Source of the DNA: Erysipelothrix sp. HDW6A
GTDB taxonomy: Bacteria; Bacillota_I; Bacilli_A; Erysipelotrichales; Erysipelotrichaceae
Assembly: GCF_011400295.1 (NCBI RefSeq)
Contig: NZ_CP049859.1
Span: forward strand, 1,364,001-1,428,000
Length of the DNA: 64,000 bases
Direction: 5' to 3'
Shown piece after piece: positions 7,285 through 34,212 of this stretch; the first letter of the stretch is position 1, and each line of letters begins with the position of its first letter. The translations under genes were made by a program, and so were the position numbers. Below the pieces are notes generated by a model. It was not told where the DNA came from, made no database searches, and was given only the letters and a program-made list of their open reading frames with translations.

Positions 7285-8352
7285 ATGAACGAGTTATTTC
7301 TGTTATGCTTACGTCTAGGCTTTACTGCTTTTGGTGGCCCTGCTGCTCACATCGCTATCTTGGAAAACGAAGTGGTTGAAAAAAGAAAGTGGATTAATAG
7401 CCAAGAATTCCTTGAATTAATGGCTTTCACTAATATTATTCCAGGCCCAAATTCAAGTGAAATGGTAATGGCTGTGGGGTATCACCACTCAAAAAGGAAA
7501 GGACTTATCGTAGCAGGCTTTGCATTTATCCTACCTGCACTTTTAATAACCAGTTTAATCACCTTGTTTTTTATCTCTTCAGATTTATCGGTTCTAGAGA
7601 CTCTTACACTCGCTGTAACTCCCCTTTTGATTGTGATAATTGCATCTGCTCTCATAAAACTAATAAAGAAACAAGAAAAGAGTTTCCTTAACATCTTCCT
7701 ATTCATAAGTGCGTTAAGTTTAAAACTTCTAAACGTTAATGAAATAATAATCTTCATTTTAGCAGGTCTTCTTTATTTAATTGCTGATAAACTGAAAACA
7801 ATAAAGCTCTTAATAGTAGAACCTATTTCTCTTTTCGTCATTTTTCTTAGTTTCTTTAAAATTGGAGCCACTCTTTACGGAAGTGGTTATGTATTAATGT
7901 CATACTTAAAAACAGAGTTTGTTGATACATTAAGGATCCTTACCGAGCAACAAATAACTCAAGCATTTGCGAGTGGTGAACTTACTCCTGGCCCAGTCTT
8001 CACTACTGCTACATCTCTTGGCATTATAATGGCAAATATCCCTGGAGGGATTATAGCCTCAATTGGAATTTTCATCCCTTCATTTACATTTATGTTACTG
8101 CTTATGCCATTTAAGAAAAAACTAAGTAGCAATCAAATCATTAAGAAAATACTACAAGGGATTTCTATTGCTGCACTGGCAATTATGGCGCATGTCGTTA
8201 TTGATTTATTATTATCAATATCGAACAACTCGATACTCATATCATTTTTACTTATTAATTCATTAATTGTCTACAAATCTAAAATGAACTCAATGATTTT
8301 GCTCCCCATTAATGCTCTTATCTATTTTCTTGTTACTGCACTCATAAAATAG
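7285..8352 (+). CDS. Chromate transporter family (ChrA/CHR) membrane protein
   Basis: This 355-residue polytopic protein has two homologous halves typical of long-chain CHR proteins. The first half carries FTAFGGPAAHIAILENEVV and IIPGPNSSEMVMAVGY; the second carries ASGELTPGPVFTTATSLG. The family moves chromate, perhaps by exchange with sulfate, although in many Firmicutes the true substrate is unknown. It starts after AAGGAG and seems to be a single gene, divergent from the zinc-ribbon gene. Resistance to chromate cannot be claimed from sequence. Confidence 0.85.
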   Translation: MNELFLLCLRLGFTAFGGPAAHIAILENEVVEKRKWINSQEFLELMAFTNIIPGPNSSEMVMAVGYHHSKRKGLIVAGFAFILPALLITSLITLFFISSDLSVLETLTLAVTPLLIVIIASALIKLIKKQEKSFLNIFLFISALSLKLLNVNEIIIFILAGLLYLIADKLKTIKLLIVEPISLFVIFLSFFKIGATLYGSGYVLMSYLKTEFVDTLRILTEQQITQAFASGELTPGPVFTTATSLGIIMANIPGGIIASIGIFIPSFTFMLLLMPFKKKLSSNQIIKKILQGISIAALAIMAHVVIDLLLSISNNSILISFLLINSLIVYKSKMNSMILLPINALIYFLVTALIK

Positions 8353-8414
8353 TGCAATCTATCAAAAGATTAGAAAATTCAAATGAAGCATGCAATTATT
8401 TGAAAACATTTTTC

Positions 8415-8442
8415 TTGCATTTTAATGTGAACGTGTTATAGT
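8415..8442 (+). promoter_or_regulatory. SigA-type promoter of the cold-shock gene
   Basis: TTGCAT, a 16-base spacer, then TATAGT. It implies a leader of about 75 bases before the ATG, in keeping with the long leaders of cold-shock mRNAs. Confidence 0.7.
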
Positions 8443-8522
8443 TTCAAGTGATAAGATAAAAAATACTCAATAATGCCTTTTGTTATTATTTGTGTACTTA
8501 TTCTAGACAGGAGGTATTATAC

Positions 8523-8726
8523 ATGGAATCAGGAAAAGTAAAATTCTTTAATGCAGAAAAAGGCTTCGGCTTTATTATTGTTGACGGTTCAAACGAAGAA
8601 ATCTTCGTTCACTTCTCAGCAATCGTATCAGAAGGATACAAAACTCTAAATGAGGGCCAAGCAGTATCATTTGATATTGTTGATGGACAACGCGGTAAAC
8701 AAGCCGACAATGTTCGCGGACTTTAA
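8523..8726 (+). CDS. Cold-shock protein, CspA family
   Basis: A 67-residue single cold-shock domain protein. Both RNA-binding motifs are present: [15 protein letters not shown] (RNP1) and EIFVHFSAI (RNP2). I start it at ATG 8523, seven bases after an AGGAGG site, not at the upstream in-frame codon at 8490. Cold-shock proteins bind single-stranded RNA and melt secondary structure. It is a single gene with its own promoter and terminator. Confidence 0.95.
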
Positions 8727-8734
8727 TTTAAACT

Positions 8735-8757
8735 AGAGCCTAAGGGCTCTTTTTTTT
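8735..8757 (+). terminator. Terminator of the cold-shock gene
   Basis: AGAGCC/GGCTCT stem with a four-base loop followed by seven Ts. Confidence 0.9.
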
Positions 8758-8782
8758 ATGTATGCACAAGAACGCACAAAAA

Positions 8783-8802
8783 AACTCCTCTTCTAAGGAG
8801 TT
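8783..8802 (-). terminator. Orphan terminator facing left
   Basis: AACTCCT/AGGAGTT stem with As at 8777-8784, which read as a T-tract on the minus strand. No intact minus-strand gene ends here. A short minus-strand open piece ending at about 8805 (VKQPNQLLKHSYNASFRLND) precedes it and could be a gene remnant. Confidence 0.6.
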
Positions 8803-9178
8803 AATTATCGTTTAATCTGAACGATGCGTTATAAGAATGTTTAAGCAACTGATTTGGTTGCTTTACAAGGTTAACATTTTATTTCAATAAAAGCAAATGA
8901 AAAGATATAAATAGTTTAATTTTCATTGTTTATACATGGGATTCCTTACTAATCCATTAATCATTATTGAATTTACACTCATAACTCTATCTAGTAGTTA
9001 TGATTCGAGGTATAAAACGTCTTTGTTCTCATATGATATTATTCTTGTAATGGGCCTAACAATCTTAATCCCCTACAATCGGATACCTATAATAACTTTT
9101 ATTCAATTGAAGTGTATGCAAGCTTCTAAGTCTCATATAGACATGGTATATTTACTCCAAGATACAGAGAGACATACT
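8803..9178. other. Gene-poor region with possible remnants
   Basis: AT-rich stretch. On the minus strand there is only the ~25-codon open tail ending near 8805. On the plus strand a frame is open from 8936 into the VOC remnant, but its residues upstream of 9179 resemble no family I know and no ribosome site supports a start there. I see no RNA gene. Confidence 0.4.
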
Positions 9179-9611
9179 ATGAATAGAATAAACTTGATTT
9201 GCTTAGGTGTAGAGAACATCAATACTTCTTTAGACTTCTACAAGAGTTTGGGTTTTAATACATTGGCTAAAGTGAACGCAGGAATTGTCTTCTTTGATAA
9301 CCAAGGATCCAAACTTGAGTTATTTCAAATTGATGAGCTCGCTAAAGATATTAATTTTAGTAAATCCTCCGAGTGTTTGTAAGAATTGCTTTTCAGGGAT
9401 TACTTTAGCCTGTAATATGAAGTCAATGCAAGAAGTTGATGACCTCTTTAACTTAGTCAATCAAATTGGTGGCACTATAGTTAAGAGCCCCGAAACAGTC
9501 TCTTGGGGTGGATACAGTGGTTATTTCCAAAATCCCGATGGATATTATTAGGAAGTAGCTTATGCTTATGATTGGATGTTTGATGAAAATGATATGCTAA
9601 TAATTGATTAA
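9179..9611 (+). pseudogene. Broken VOC (glyoxalase/bleomycin-resistance) family gene
   Basis: From ATG 9179 the frame reads MNRINLICLGVENINTSLDF, a classic VOC N-terminal half, to a stop at 9380-9382. The second half continues in another frame (FSGITLACNMKSMQEVDDLF, then GGYSGYFQNPDGYY). A TAG at 9549-9551 stands where family members have Trp in GYYWEVAY, and the frame then continues as EVAYAYDWMFDENDMLIID to TAA at 9609. So there is one frameshift near 9365-9380 and one nonsense change. The intact form would be ~143 residues, a metal-dependent small enzyme or binding protein of unknown substrate. Confidence 0.85.
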
Positions 9612-9622
9612 TAACGTTAATA

Positions 9623-9645
9623 AAAGGGAGCCAAAGACTCCCTTT
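9623..9645. terminator. Bidirectional terminator between VOC remnant and 86-residue protein
   Basis: AAAGGGAG/CTCCCTTT stem, seven-base loop, with A and T runs on the flanks. Confidence 0.8.
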
Positions 9646-9677
9646 TCGCTTTAATAAGCTATTTCTTGATTTCATGA

Positions 9678-9938
9678 TTACTTTGTAGAATAGACCTTCC
9701 CTACAATACCTTTAATACCTTCAACCGCTATGTCCTCAGGAAGTACAAACCATAAAGGTGTTTTACCAAATAAAGGAAAACCTCCTGGTTTTACATTATC
9801 ACCATTCCAACGTATAGCATAGGTGTCTTTGTTCTTCCATTTAACCAAAGCCACAGAATAACTATCAGGTCCACCATCATATAGAACACGGATATCAGTT
9901 GCCGAACCACTTACTTCTTGCGGAATAATATATGTCAT
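9678..9938 (-). CDS. Conserved-looking small protein of unknown function
   Basis: This is an 86-residue protein with a good ribosome site (AAAGGAGG) and its own terminator side. I recognise no named domain. It contains NKDTYAIRWNG and the compact stretch GFPLFGKTPLWFVLPEDI, and lacks Cys, a signal peptide and membrane segments, so a soluble beta-rich cytoplasmic protein is likely. It stands alone between two terminators. Confidence 0.65.
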   Translation of the reverse strand: MTYIIPQEVSGSATDIRVLYDGGPDSYSVALVKWKNKDTYAIRWNGDNVKPGGFPLFGKTPLWFVLPEDIAVEGIKGIVGKVYSTK

Positions 9939-10008
9939 TGTAATTCCTCCTTTACCTAATTATATCACTTATAGATAAGATACAATTGAATATACCTCTA
10001 TAAAAACA

Positions 10009-10043
10009 CCCCAGTATCAAGTTTGGGGACGTGAATACTGGGG
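10009..10043 (-). terminator. Hairpin terminator after the GNAT gene
   Basis: CCCCAGTAT/ATACTGGGG, a 9-bp GC-rich stem with a 17-base loop. Read leftward it is followed by TGTTTTTA. It lies about 70 bp past the acetyltransferase stop. Confidence 0.7.
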
Positions 10044-10111
10044 CAATATTAACTAATGTTAACTAAAGTATAACACAAGTTAATTGTTTATATATATTTA
10101 AGGCTTACTTT

Positions 10112-10387
10112 TTATTTCTTTAGTACATCTGAATATTCAGCTTTACGTTTAAATTCCTGAGCTGCGAAAGGACAAAGTGGCATTATTACTTTATTGATTT
10201 CACGTGCTAAGTCGACTACATGTTTTACAAGGTCTTCTGCAATTCCTTGTCCACGATAGTCAGGATTTACATAGGTGTGATCGATAATTAATATGTTCTC
10301 ACCTGCTTGTTGGTAAGTAACCTCACCAATTTCATCACCATTATCATTTAATACATAAAATCTTTTCTCCCCTGCTAATATTTTCAT
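10112..10387 (-). CDS. Small GNAT-like N-acetyltransferase (YjdJ/COG2388 type)
   Basis: 91 residues, the usual length of the minimal GNAT group COG2388. The acetyl-CoA loop is visible as YVNPDYRGQGIAEDLVKHVV (residues ~39-58), followed by the conserved VIMPLCPFAAQEFKR, where PLCPFA is the group's hallmark. Substrate is unknown. An AGGAGG site precedes the ATG. Confidence 0.85.
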   Translation of the reverse strand: MKILAGEKRFYVLNDNGDEIGEVTYQQAGENILIIDHTYVNPDYRGQGIAEDLVKHVVDLAREINKVIMPLCPFAAQEFKRKAEYSDVLKK

Positions 10388-10461
10388 ACTATATCCTCCT
10401 ATGAAATTATTATATCATCAATCATTAATATCTTAAACGATTGTTTAAATATTAAACAAAA

Positions 10462-11733
10462 TTAATCAACATCGTAATCTTTCTTTCTACCTGGGTATAG
10501 TACATTACGTCTTTTTGCATCAAAGTTTTCTGTATCTTTATCCATTACTGCACTTGCTCTCTTAATAACATTGTAGCCAAACTTATCACGGAGCTTGTCA
10601 ATCGTATCATCGATTATAGCTTGTTTTTGATTGGATTCTTTTGTGTTTTCAAAGATAGATATTTGTTCGAATTCGGGATTATCAATAAGATTTGAAACAC
10701 TGATTCCAATACTACGAAGTGGAATATTAAAAGTATAGTTCTCTTCTAAGAGCATCATTGCAGTTTTTAGTATTTCAGTACTGTTGTTTGTTGCTTTAGA
10801 TATTCGTTTTTGTCGTGTAATCGTGACTAATTGAATATCTCGCAGAGAAATTGAAATGGTAAAACCTTTCATTTTTTCATCATGCAGTCGTGAAGCTACA
10901 CTGTCAGCAAGGTGTCTGAAAATTATCTTCGCTTGATGGTTTGTATTTATATCGTGAGGTGGAGTTGTACTATTGCCAATACTTTTTGGAGCTGGCATAA
11001 CACCTGAGTAATCGACATCCCCCTCTTCTATACCATTAGCAAATTCCCACATCTGCAATCCTTTAACACCAAAATGCTTTTCTAGCTTCTTTACAGAACT
11101 TGTTGCAAGATCACCAATGGTATAAATACCCAATGCATTTAATTTCGGTGTCGTTTGCTTTCCAACATATAATAATTCACTGACTGGGAGCGGCCAAACA
11201 ATTTCTTTGTAGTTTGATCGAGTAATAATGGTCATACCACTTGGTTTGATTAAATCACTTCCAAGTTTCGCAAACACTTTATTCCAACTAACACCTACAG
11301 ATACTGTCAGTCCATACTCTTCTAATACTCGCCTTTGCATCTCATACGCTAAATCATAAGGTTTACCAAACAAATGATAGGATTCAGTGACATCAATCCA
11401 TGCTTCGTCCGCTCCATAAGATTCGACTTTATCTGTATATTCACGATAAATATCCTTAACTTTACTGGTGTAGTACATGTACAAATCTGAATGTGGAGTC
11501 ACAACAACTAAATGAGGACATTTCTTCTTAGCATCTCTTAAGGTTTCTGCTGTCTGAACTCCGTACTCTTTCGCCTTAAGATTTCTAGCTAGGACAATTC
11601 CACTTCTACTTTTCTCATCACCGCCAACACACATCGCAACGTTTCTTAACTCCGGATTCATCATTTCTTCAATTTGAGCGAAACAATGATTAATATCGAT
11701 ATGAAAAATAATTCTATCTTTAATCTCACTCAT
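10462..11733 (-). CDS. dinB: Y-family DNA polymerase (DinB/Pol IV-like)
   Basis: This 423-residue translesion polymerase begins HIDINHCFAQIEEMMNPELR. Against E. coli Pol IV the metal ligand Asp8 and the steric-gate Phe are kept, but the second Asp of DMD is Asn and the next residues are His-Cys. The second catalytic pair is SYGADEAWIDVT (usually S-L/I-DE). The clamp-binding motif QISIF lies near residue 360. It would copy past DNA damage in the cytoplasm. The altered motif places it in a divergent DinB subgroup. There is no LexA-like site I can confirm. Confidence 0.85.
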   Translation of the reverse strand: MSEIKDRIIFHIDINHCFAQIEEMMNPELRNVAMCVGGDEKSRSGIVLARNLKAKEYGVQTAETLRDAKKKCPHLVVVTPHSDLYMYYTSKVKDIYREYTDKVESYGADEAWIDVTESYHLFGKPYDLAYEMQRRVLEEYGLTVSVGVSWNKVFAKLGSDLIKPSGMTIITRSNYKEIVWPLPVSELLYVGKQTTPKLNALGIYTIGDLATSSVKKLEKHFGVKGLQMWEFANGIEEGDVDYSGVMPAPKSIGNSTTPPHDINTNHQAKIIFRHLADSVASRLHDEKMKGFTISISLRDIQLVTITRQKRISKATNNSTEILKTAMMLLEENYTFNIPLRSIGISVSNLIDNPEFEQISIFENTKESNQKQAIIDDTIDKLRDKFGYNVIKRASAVMDKDTENFDAKRRNVLYPGRKKDYDVD

Positions 11734-28810: not shown

Positions 28811-29814
28811 TAAAATGAATTATTTTCTGCTTTTAAATCACGTTCCATAAGATCACTGATTGCTTCTGATGGCGATTTACCTTCATAGACAACTAGATAT
28901 ACTTGTTCAGTGATTGGCATTGAGATATTTTTCTCTTTTGCTACTTCATGAACAACTTTTGCTGCAAAGACTCCTTCAACAGTTTTTGTGTTATTGTCAA
29001 AAAAGTGTTTAGCAGAGTTGTTTTTTCCAATTGAGTATCCTGCTTGGAAGTTTCTTGAATGTGGACTTGTACAGGTAACAATTAAATCACCAACACCACA
29101 AAGTCCTAAGAATGTTTCAGCTTGGCCACCATGTGCAACACCATAACGTGTCATCTCTGCAAGCCCACGAGTCATAAGAGCCGCTTTAGCATTATCTCCT
29201 AATCCTAGTCCTGACAGAACACCACTTGCTACAGCAATGATGTTTTTTATAGCAACACCAATCTGAGCACCGATAGTGTCTGTGTTGGTATATACTCTAA
29301 AATAATTATTTGAGAATAAATTTTGGACAATAACGGCAGCTTCTTCATCATCAGAAACAGCATTAATTACTGTAAGACCTCTCTCAACAACTTCTTCTGC
29401 GTGAGACGGTCCTATGAGACTTACAACAGCACTTCGTTTACTCTGATCAACTGAATTCTTAATGACATCCATTAATAATTCATGAGTTACTGGATGAAAT
29501 CCTTTAGCTACATTAATAATAAGTGTCGGTTTTTCTAATATATCATTTAATTGCTTGGATACTTCTTCAACAGCACCTGTAGGCACTGCTAGTAACATCA
29601 CATCAGCATCATTTAGTCTCTCTAAATCTGTGGTTGCATCAAGATCATCATTAAGCTTTACTCCTGGAAAGTATGCTTCATTGTAACCGTGTAGATGAAT
29701 ATCAACGACTTCATCAAGTTTTCTTCCCCAGATTAATACTTCGTGACCATTATCTGCAAGTACATTCCCTAAAGCTGTACCCCAGCTACCAGAACCTAAA
29801 ATACCTATTTTCAT
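28810..29814 (-). CDS. gpsA: Glycerol-3-phosphate dehydrogenase [NAD(P)+]
   Basis: 334 residues. NAD-binding fold GILGSGSWGTALGNVLADNG at the start, GPSHAEEV near 140, and KNIIAVASGVLSGLGLGDNA near 190 with the catalytic Lys. It makes sn-glycerol 3-phosphate from DHAP for membrane lipid synthesis. Its start overlaps the der stop by 4 bp, the common der-gpsA arrangement. Confidence 0.97.
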   Translation of the reverse strand: MKIGILGSGSWGTALGNVLADNGHEVLIWGRKLDEVVDIHLHGYNEAYFPGVKLNDDLDATTDLERLNDADVMLLAVPTGAVEEVSKQLNDILEKPTLIINVAKGFHPVTHELLMDVIKNSVDQSKRSAVVSLIGPSHAEEVVERGLTVINAVSDDEEAAVIVQNLFSNNYFRVYTNTDTIGAQIGVAIKNIIAVASGVLSGLGLGDNAKAALMTRGLAEMTRYGVAHGGQAETFLGLCGVGDLIVTCTSPHSRNFQAGYSIGKNNSAKHFFDNNTKTVEGVFAAKVVHEVAKEKNISMPITEQVYLVVYEGKSPSEAISDLMERDLKAENNSF

Positions 29815-31124
29815 GATTCTCCTCGCTTTCGAACAATAATATGGATTGGTGTTCCTTCAAAATTAAATGCACGACGCAATGAATTCTCAATATATCTTCT
29901 GTATGAGAAGTGTACAAGATCAGGATCATTTACAAATATTACAAATGTAGGTGGTGCTACAGAAACCTGAGATGCGTATAGTATTTTAGCCCTTTTACCA
30001 TGGTGTGATGGTGGCGGAGACATACGAATCGCATCATGAATAACTTCATTCAATACACTAGTACTAATACGACGTTGACTGTTTTCATAAGCTTCTTCTA
30101 TCATTGGAATCAATGTATGAACACGTTTCTTTGTCAGTGCAGAAACAAATGCGATTGGTGCATAACTTAGATAGACAAATTCCGCTTCAATTTTCTTACG
30201 AACATCTTCCATCATTGTTTCTTCTTTATCGACTGTATCCCACTTGTTATAAACGATAATAACTGGTTTCCCTGCTTCATGAGCAAAGCCTACAACGTGT
30301 TTATCTTGTGCACGAATACCTTGTTCACCATCAAGCACAAATAAAACAACATCACTACGCTCAATTGCTGTCATAGCACGTAAAACAGAATATTTCTCAA
30401 CATCCTCATAAACTTTTCCACGCTTACGAATACCAGCAGTATCAATTACCACAAAATCACGATCATGATAACGGAACGGAGTATCAACAGCATCACGGGT
30501 AGTACCTTCTATATTCGATACAATAACTCGTTCTTGACCAAGAAGTGAGTTTACTAATGAACTTTTACCAACATTAGGACGACCGATAATTGAGAACTTT
30601 AACTCATCAGTATAGAGGGTTGTTTTATTATCAGGTAGTTTACTAATAACACTATCTAAAAGGTCCCCTACACCGATACCATGAAGGCTACTTACTGCAA
30701 TAGGGTCATCATAACCTAAAGCATAGAACTCATAAATATCAGCTTGGAATTGAACATCATCAACTTTATTTACAGCAATGATTACAGGCTTTTCTGTTTC
30801 ACGTAATAATCTCGCAATATGATGATCATCATTGGTGATTCCTTCCATTGCACTTACTACAAAAAGAATAACATCCGCTTCATCTATTGCAATTTCAACT
30901 TGCATTGCAATTTCTTCATCAAAAGGCTGGTCTTCAATTTGAATACCACCTGTATCAATAAATCTTAAATTTTTTGTAAGCCAGGTAACTTTACCGTAAA
31001 GACGATCACGGGTTACACCTGCTTCTTCATGAACAATGGAAAGTCTTTCTCCCATAATTCTATTGAATAACGATGATTTACCTACATTGGGGCGACCTAC
31101 TATTGCTACTACGCCATCAATCAT
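29811..31124 (-). CDS. der: Ribosome-assembly GTPase Der (EngA)
   Basis: 437 residues with two tandem GTPase domains, GRPNVGKSSLFNRIMG near the start and GRPNVGKSSLVNSLLG near 183, plus the C-terminal KH-like domain (RRAFNFEGTPIHIIVRKRG). Each has DTGG/DTAG and NKVD/NKWD motifs. Needed for 50S subunit assembly. Overlaps cmk by 8 bp. Confidence 0.98.
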   Translation of the reverse strand: MIDGVVAIVGRPNVGKSSLFNRIMGERLSIVHEEAGVTRDRLYGKVTWLTKNLRFIDTGGIQIEDQPFDEEIAMQVEIAIDEADVILFVVSAMEGITNDDHHIARLLRETEKPVIIAVNKVDDVQFQADIYEFYALGYDDPIAVSSLHGIGVGDLLDSVISKLPDNKTTLYTDELKFSIIGRPNVGKSSLVNSLLGQERVIVSNIEGTTRDAVDTPFRYHDRDFVVIDTAGIRKRGKVYEDVEKYSVLRAMTAIERSDVVLFVLDGEQGIRAQDKHVVGFAHEAGKPVIIVYNKWDTVDKEETMMEDVRKKIEAEFVYLSYAPIAFVSALTKKRVHTLIPMIEEAYENSQRRISTSVLNEVIHDAIRMSPPPSHHGKRAKILYASQVSVAPPTFVIFVNDPDLVHFSYRRYIENSLRRAFNFEGTPIHIIVRKRGES

Positions 31125-32915: not shown

Positions 32916-33434
32916 CTAATTAATTTTATCCAGATAACGTTCCATTATTGTCATTATTACTAAAAGAATTACTCCTTTAAAAATGTTGAATGGTAAGAAG
33001 ATTGCTATCAATTGTGACATTGCTGTGCTCTTATCCATTCCATATAATGGGAAAGTTACGTAATAGTTTATTAAGTGCATCAACCCTACTGTTATTAGTA
33101 GTCCGATAGCTGACAAGGCAATTTTCTTTACAATTGGTTTGCCTTTTGCAAGTAATACAGGAATCATCATTAATACTGCGAAACTAAAGTTTGCTAACTC
33201 TCCTGCTAAGTTTGAATTATTTGAAATAGCTATAACGTGAATAACATTCTTTAATAATGCTATGAGGATACCGTATACTGGCCCCATCATATAGCCACCA
33301 ATTAGTACTGGTAAATCACTAAAATCCATCTTTAGTGGAACACCAGGTAATGGTAATTCAAAATAATAAAATATGGCAGATATCGCTACTAGTATTGATA
33401 CCTGTGTCATATGTCGAGTACTCATTTTTTCCAT
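32916..33434 (-). CDS. ribU: Riboflavin ECF transporter substrate-binding subunit
   Basis: 172 residues with ~5-6 membrane helices. ELPLPGVPLKMDFSDLPVLI near 27-46 and GPVYGILIALLKNVIHV near 52-68 are RibU marks. It binds riboflavin and works with a shared ECF energising module encoded elsewhere. The FMN riboswitch directly upstream confirms the substrate. An AGGAGG site lies seven bases before ATG 33434. Single gene. Confidence 0.95.
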   Translation of the reverse strand: MEKMSTRHMTQVSILVAISAIFYYFELPLPGVPLKMDFSDLPVLIGGYMMGPVYGILIALLKNVIHVIAISNNSNLAGELANFSFAVLMMIPVLLAKGKPIVKKIALSAIGLLITVGLMHLINYYVTFPLYGMDKSTAMSQLIAIFLPFNIFKGVILLVIMTIMERYLDKIN

Positions 33435-33487
33435 CGTTTTGCCTCCTATTAGAAAAAAGTAATACTCAAGGCAAATAACATGAAAAA

Positions 33488-33592
33488 AAGACTTCTTTCA
33501 TCCAGACTTTACTGTCGCCACTGGAGTTTCACCAGTTCAACCCGAAGGCTCGCGGGTTTACCGCCGGTCGGGAATTTCACCCTGCCCTGAAG
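33488..33592 (-). ncRNA. FMN riboswitch
   Basis: The minus strand reads AGGGCAGGGUGAAAUUCCCG, ACCGGCGGUAAACCCGCGAG, then CUGGUGAAACUCCAGUGGCG, ACAGUAAAGUCUGGAUG and AGAAG: all conserved parts of the RFN element. A U-run follows at 33482-33488. It would shut ribU off when FMN is plentiful. Confidence 0.97.
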
Positions 33593-33634
33593 TACATATA
33601 CATTATAGACAGAATTACGTTGTAAGTCTAGAAA

Positions 33635-33656
33635 AAAACACAGTTTCCTGTGTTTT
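33635..33656 (-). terminator. Terminator after efp
   Basis: AAAACACAG/CTGTGTTTT stem, four-base loop, with a T-tract leftward. Ends the comG-efp transcript ahead of the riboswitch. Confidence 0.9.
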
Positions 33657-34212
33657 AAGCGCGTCCAGAATATTTTCCGTCTGTAGTATTAACCATCACT
33701 ACTTCACCTTCACTAATGAATAAAGGCACACGGATTTCGTATCCAGTTTCTACAACTGCATTCTTTTGTGCATTAGTTGCTGTATCACCTTTAACTGCTG
33801 GTTCAGCTTGAGTAACTGTTAGTGCAATTTTTTCAGGTAAGCTAACACCTAATACTTCGTTTTCAAATGTTGTGACAGTAACATCTGAGTTTTCCTTCAT
33901 GAAATTTAATTCCCACTCTAAGCGTGATTTTTCAATTTCAATTTGTTCGTATGTTTCACCATCCATGAAGACAATAAAGTCTCCTGAATCGTAAAGGTAT
34001 TGCATTGGTCGTTTTTCGATATGTGCTGGTTCAATCTTATCTCCACCGATAAAGGTTAACTCAGTTACTGAACCAGAACGCATATTACGAACTTTAGCTT
34101 TAATAATCATTTGACGTTGAGCTGTTTTATTATGTGATGTATCAATAACTACATATAAGTTTCCCTCATGTAAGATTGACATACCTGATCTTAAATCATT
34201 TGATGAAATCAT
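33655..34212 (-). CDS. efp: Elongation factor P with atypical loop
   Basis: Started at ATG 34212 (CGGAGGATG in front), 185 residues, the standard length. Three beta-barrel domains; EPAVKGDTA and the ending TDGKYSGRA are typical. Gapless alignment with B. subtilis EF-P (MISVNDFR...) puts Gln at position 32, where Lys (or Arg) is modified: KPGKGAAF is replaced by KTAQRQMI. EF-P rescues ribosomes stalled at polyproline. The loop change implies no modification or a different one. It follows comGG by 13 bp, so it shares the competence operon's transcript. Confidence 0.95.
   Translation of the reverse strand: MISSNDLRSGMSILHEGNLYVVIDTSHNKTAQRQMIIKAKVRNMRSGSVTELTFIGGDKIEPAHIEKRPMQYLYDSGDFIVFMDGETYEQIEIEKSRLEWELNFMKENSDVTVTTFENEVLGVSLPEKIALTVTQAEPAVKGDTATNAQKNAVVETGYEIRVPLFISEGEVVMVNTTDGKYSGRA

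Follow-up and report, generated by a model that had tools for sequence, protein, structure and literature searches.

Glutamine at the tip of a rebuilt, proline-free loop in the only elongation factor P of Erysipelothrix sp. HDW6A

We analysed a window of 64,000 nucleotides (positions 1,364,001 to 1,428,000 of contig NZ_CP049859.1) from Erysipelothrix sp. HDW6A, whose genome (G000) is one contig of 2.04 Mb with a completeness rating of 94%. The gene for elongation factor P (EF-P), efp, lies there in the neighbourhood comG/efp/RibU/cmk/der. A preliminary description of this DNA, which spanned the first 44 codons of efp, had pointed to a glutamine where B. subtilis EF-P carries its modified lysine. 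The features of the gene, all on the minus strand, are:

33655..34212 (including the stop codon; ATG at 34212): efp, elongation factor P of 185 residues, window type, with a non-canonical loop
34108..34128: codons of the beta3-beta4 loop, K29-T-A-Q32-R33-Q-M35 (KTAQRQM; KPGKGAA in the B. subtilis type)
34117..34119: Gln32 codon CAA, the loop apex, at the position of the modified Lys32 or Lys34 of other bacteria
34111..34116: codons of Arg33-Gln34; a basic residue is always present at 33 or 34 if residue 32 is not Arg
34126-34128: codon of K29
34114-34116: codon CGT of R33
34108-34110: codon of M35

Between efp and the downstream gene for a RibU-like riboflavin transporter (32916-33434) lies an FMN riboswitch (RF00050, 107 bits, 33486-33598, minus strand), and since it separates the two genes the RibU-like gene is probably under separate control.

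The encoded protein is certainly a member of the EF-P family and falls outside every characterised modification class. It scores 232.7 bits against TIGR00038 over positions 1-184 (cut-off 185.8), all three EF-P domains of Pfam were found (the KOW-like domain I and two OB domains), and it aligns without gaps to S. aureus EF-P and likewise to Lys-type EF-Ps. The AlphaFold2 model (mean pLDDT 90; TM 0.91 to S. aureus EF-P 6rk3) has strands at residues 18-29 and 35-43, so residues 30-34 form the tip of the hairpin, with Gln32 in its middle. The domain III stretch VKGDTAT, with the GDT motif through which EF-P contacts the E-site codon, is preserved, as are the C-terminal Y181 and R184. Both earlier statements, that Gln32 replaces the modified Lys32 and that the rest of the protein is normal, were thus borne out. 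The position is not, however, universally modified as the preliminary description had it: among the 1,166 EF-Ps surveyed by Volkwein et al. (2019) the tip is Lys in 81%, Arg in 15% and Met, Gln, Asn or Ala in about 4% (PMC6544042).

The genome search returned a single EF-P, so no second, canonical copy, which would have refuted the claim, is hidden in this genome; one copy per genome is the number for Erysipelothrix. The loop NKTA[Q/M]RQM was found in 13/13 Erysipelothrix genomes; its tip is Met in three and Gln in most, and the closest named relatives are E. anatis and E. aquatica (88% EF-P identity). Since the 12 further genomes of the genus have this loop too, sequencing error does not explain Gln32. 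A residue this rare could by itself suggest an artefact (a sequencing error, a pseudogene or a misaligned loop), but given 13 concordant genomes, an open frame, a gapless alignment and an apex position confirmed on the model, we accord this explanation practically no weight.

Loops with such tips have been recorded before. In the survey, Met and Gln tips amount to 0.77% and 0.6% and never occur with proline two residues upstream, and the window protein fits this group exactly (Gln32, Thr30, no proline at -2). The suggested new EF-P type is therefore not wholly new, since non-Lys tips including Gln and Met are on record, as rare but uncharacterised variants in the accessible text of the two papers (PMC6544042, PMC11611912); in that text, the survey gives frequencies and E. 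coli point mutants and describes no clade, relocated basic residue or enzyme background. A literature search found no EF-P study in Erysipelothrix or Mollicutes, nor one on the Erysipelotrichales/Mollicutes type, in the openly accessible literature.

We also searched for the known modification enzymes, as the preliminary description had proposed, and could confirm their absence for some of them. EpmB was found in 0/13 Erysipelothrix genomes (the control matched), and the EpmA model gave only sub-cut-off matches in the genus, the best being LysRS-like and lying in a LysRS-sized frame of 501 residues; the window protein is accordingly not placed with the beta-lysyl EF-Ps. The YnbB-type family PF06838 had no match in the host genome, where the best match of the YmfI model (196 bits, cut-off 238) is FabG in the fatty-acid operon. 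EarP was unmatched in the 13 Erysipelothrix genomes and likewise in the control genomes, so that this search had no positive control. The YmfI-model match at G000:C1:1098043 was rejected as an EF-P reductase: it lies between fabD and fabF and scores above the FabG cut-off. In another Erysipelothrix genome, an additional EpmA/LysRS-like frame (G012:C22:55071-55835; 285 residues, 169.6 bits, below the cut-off) lies near LysRS.

Actinobacterial EF-P keeps its lysine in a PGKGP loop, whereas PGKG is completely replaced in the window protein. What the two would share is work without tip modification, for which the Actinobacterial protein is a stated exception to the requirement (PMC11381351). The Lys32 EF-P of B. 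subtilis and S. aureus, which carries 5-aminopentanol and depends on YmfI, YnbB and GsaB (PMC5885033), has the same fold and single-copy housekeeping role (45-49% identity and TM 0.80-0.91 to the S. aureus structures), but the window protein is devoid of Lys32, Pro30 and Gly31 (Gln32 and Thr30 instead), and its host is without YnbB and answers the YmfI model with FabG alone. EfpL (YeiP) of enterobacteria is the other precedent for action without modification, working with an unmodified Arg tip (PMC11611912), as is predicted here for Gln32. Its loop is, however, two residues longer (nine against seven) and it accompanies a normal EF-P, whereas the window protein is the sole EF-P of its host and scores 127.5 bits against the EfpL model (cut-off 216). 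Arg32-rhamnosyl EF-P of the EarP type likewise has a proline-free loop, and sister branches of the window type have an Arg tip, but the apex is Gln32 in the window and Gln or Met in the genus.

In the family, whose named members are Erysipelotrichaceae and Breznakia, the commonest loop is NKTAMRQM, with NKTARSAM, NKTARSAT, NKTARSGM, NKTALRQM and NKTAMAKM on side branches; the sister family has NKTARAAA or NKQGRLSG. Elsewhere in the class, families f8 and f19 have NKTAMRKM and NKTAMRQM, and families f5 and f16, which we take to be Mollicutes from their reading of TGA as Trp, have KTGRAQG, KTGRQQG, KSGRGQA and KQGRGQA. A maximum-likelihood tree of 129 EF-P sequences places the window protein in a clade of 84 sequences, made up of Erysipelotrichales, code-4 Mollicutes and relatives, which splits from the Lys-type half at a support of 99/98. 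Within this clade Lys29 is invariant (84/84) and neither Pro30 nor Lys32 occurs (0/84 each), while residue 32 is Met in 41 sequences, Arg in 33, Gln in nine and Leu in one (codons ATG for Met, CAA for Gln, TTA for Leu and mostly AGA or CGT for Arg). Gln as the lineage character was rejected: Met is commoner, and three Erysipelothrix carry it. What characterises the lineage on the alignment is the entire KTA[M/Q/R].. loop, devoid of Pro30 and common to Mollicutes and other Erysipelotrichales. Of the lineage-wide change suggested earlier, the whole loop therefore stands and Gln by itself is confined to Erysipelothrix.

The basic residues of the loop follow a strict pattern. Arg32 occurs without a basic residue at 33-34 in 33 sequences, a non-basic residue 32 occurs with Arg or Lys at 33 or 34 in 51, and both or neither in none (33/0 versus 0/51, over 18 distinct loop sequences); as these sequences are related, the pattern represents mainly one switch in the tree and about three later events, not 84 independent cases, and its Fisher value is accordingly too strong. 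Arg33 is present in 46/84, and its change to Ala is always paired with Lys34, on three separate branches (KTAMAKM in f1, f19 and f8). The loop frame is 94-100% conserved in the family (N28 and K29 1.00, T30 0.96, A31 0.98, M35 0.94) against a protein mean of 75% (0.75), which points to constraint on the loop and speaks against decay. Within the same class, but in the opposite half of the tree, there are VKSARSAAF (L110 and L116, f9), TKSARSGAL (L119, f11), two EF-Ps with the altered loop HVLQNKVAY (L131 and L132, f21) and NVPTKRGSV (L138, f20), which appear to be further independent departures from KPGKG. In two assemblies a frameshift or stop interrupts the window-type efp (G185:C1:2430932-2431479 and G195:C224:58148-58700), possibly a sequencing error; a second, cassette-borne EF-P (described below) is intact in G185, not in G195.

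Polyproline translation appears to be still needed, since ValS keeps its PPP (PYS[IL]VIPPPNVTG in the 8/8 Erysipelothrix genomes in which it was read) and Der (29811-31124 in the window) has SPPPS; the 65 ORFs of the window hold one PPP and one PPG. This bears on the idea that the protein gave up polyproline rescue and either drifts or keeps a secondary role only, such as working together with the ABCF protein YfmR independently of modification, as in B. subtilis. B. subtilis EF-P K32A is indeed inactive on polyproline yet supports growth without YfmR (PMC11381351), several relatives of Erysipelothrix hold a second, Lys-type EF-P, and in two drafts (G162 and G132) that kind alone was found. 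Erysipelothrix itself, however, is without such a copy and yet keeps PPP in ValS and Der, the loop is conserved above the protein average and the GDT motif of domain III is in place. With these PPP motifs, VKGDTAT and Y181/R184 all kept, loss of function is unlikely, and we consider this idea quite improbable. A changed target, also offered in the preliminary description, is unlikely as well because ValS keeps PPP. Outside the window, an IleRS-like gene (G000:C1:1454002-1456532) is apparently split over frames of 727 and 203 residues with one TAA; it is a single frame of 908-948 residues in relatives, and the split in the host is either a sequencing error or a real break.

We favour the reading, to which we give a probability of roughly 0.57, that the window EF-P needs no modification of residue 32 for its action and that Arg33/Lys34 and Lys29 make the contacts near the CCA end in its stead. 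It was one of the options raised at the outset and, while it stays an inference from sequence, it is the best of them because the change is lineage-wide, no canonical second copy exists, and neither a dedicated EpmB or YnbB nor a confident EpmA or YmfI was found. Modification at residue 32 would not be needed, since there is no chemistry common to Met, Leu, Gln and Arg that one enzyme could exploit, and this variation likewise argues against a single enzyme acting there. The protein is the housekeeping EF-P of Erysipelothrix, its gene keeping the ancestral position on the chromosome behind the comG-like operon, and would enter the E site beside P-site tRNA-Pro like other EF-Ps. To judge from the sequences, the clade swapped the Lys-type tip (KPGKG) for the loop K-T-A-x-x-x-M, which has no proline. 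The most likely order at the tip is Lys, then Arg, then Met, the last step placing the basic residue at 33 or 34; a further change from Met to Gln would have followed in the majority of Erysipelothrix.

Polyproline rescue is commonly held to require modified EF-P, and a tip changed to Met or Gln kills E. coli EF-P: among the single changes given in the accessible text of the survey, K34Q and K34M, and also P32S and G33A, yield inactive proteins (PMC6544042). A Gln or Met tip would therefore work only with compensation by the rest of the loop. The same dead mutants would also fit a modification that has moved and not been lost, placed on the invariant Lys29 or on Arg33 by an enzyme outside those known; both residues are at hand (84/84 and 46/84), and Arg is glycosylated in EF-Ps of the EarP type, as the same text reports. 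Lys29 is, however, also invariant in the aligned Lys-type EF-Ps and so is no special sign, the three branches with Ala33 and Lys34 would not be tolerated by a dedicated Arg33 enzyme, and no conserved extra enzyme gene adjoining efp was seen within the window. We hold a moved modification to be unlikely, if less so than a lost polyproline function. Under action without modification, a large natural clade whose sole EF-P has a Met or Gln tip, in cells with PPP in ValS, would make the real role of the modification, and possible substitutes for it, testable with one recombinant protein.

Many Erysipelotrichales hold, next to the window-type copy, a second EF-P (EF-P2) with HVKPGKGAAILKTKM, about 42% identical to the window protein. 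These Lys32 copies form one clade (100/99) in the Lys-type half of the tree, and it is the window-type copy that keeps the comG/efp/RibU/cmk/der neighbourhood; the Lys32 copies were therefore rejected as the ancestral orthologue of the window efp. EF-P relatives with Lys32 in the same lineage, which the preliminary description had named as an objection, thus exist in the order, but they leave the finding standing, being a distinct paralogue associated with genes for candidate modification enzymes. EF-P2 usually has a PnuC-like membrane protein gene in front of it, and 7-41 bases behind it comes a short-chain dehydrogenase (SDR) gene; this SDR scores 157-175 bits against the YmfI model and is only YmfI-like, since FabG models match it too. 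A gene of the YnbB family (PF06838, about 500 bits), mostly convergent, lies as a rule 0.8-6 kb away and once 35 kb. Examples of the cassette (PnuC-like gene, Lys32 EF-P, SDR, usually convergent YnbB) are:

L098:5736-10238
L101:3816-8867
L148:6653-12450
L150:5869-9809

In L098 (genome G153) the cassette has the comG operon on one side and the window-type efp on the other, a place that is empty in the window.

Among 98 genomes, each at least 90% complete, YnbB was present in 37/37 genomes with EF-P2, 60 had neither, and one had YnbB with no EF-P of any kind found (G186, 92% complete), a co-occurrence with a Fisher p of about 3e-26 when kinship is ignored. With EF-P2 and YnbB together in 37/37, the modification enzymes would go with the Lys32 copy rather than with the window-type one, and the cassette looks like a portable unit of EF-P and modification, absent from Erysipelothrix. 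In B. subtilis, 5-aminopentanol on Lys32 strictly depends on YnbB and YmfI, and GsaB is required as well (PMC5885033); GsaB was not seen beside the cassette, and 5-aminopentanol-type chemistry on EF-P2 is our guess. This linkage of Lys32 EF-P, SDR and YnbB, a new by-product of the analysis, gives an independent comparative hint to the core B. subtilis enzymes of that type of modification.

Tentatively, and with somewhat less than even odds, we propose for the Erysipelotrichales and Mollicutes together that rebuilding the whole loop dispensed with tip modification, with the basic side chain shifted from 32 to 33/34 in the Met/Gln branch, and that many relatives keep or acquired a modified EF-P, with its own candidate enzymes (SDR and YnbB), through the portable cassette. 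If so, two EF-P chemistries coexist in one cell, and the cassette-bearing relatives are natural strains with both EF-P kinds. In two drafts, G162 (L172, 100% complete) and G132 (L169, 95%), the Lys32 cassette EF-P is the sole EF-P found, with no window-type copy beside it, hinting that either kind may suffice. In L148, the interval between the cassette SDR and YnbB (8109-10825) holds a SCIFF peptide maturase gene and a decarboxylase-like PLP gene that weakly resembles lysine/arginine decarboxylases.
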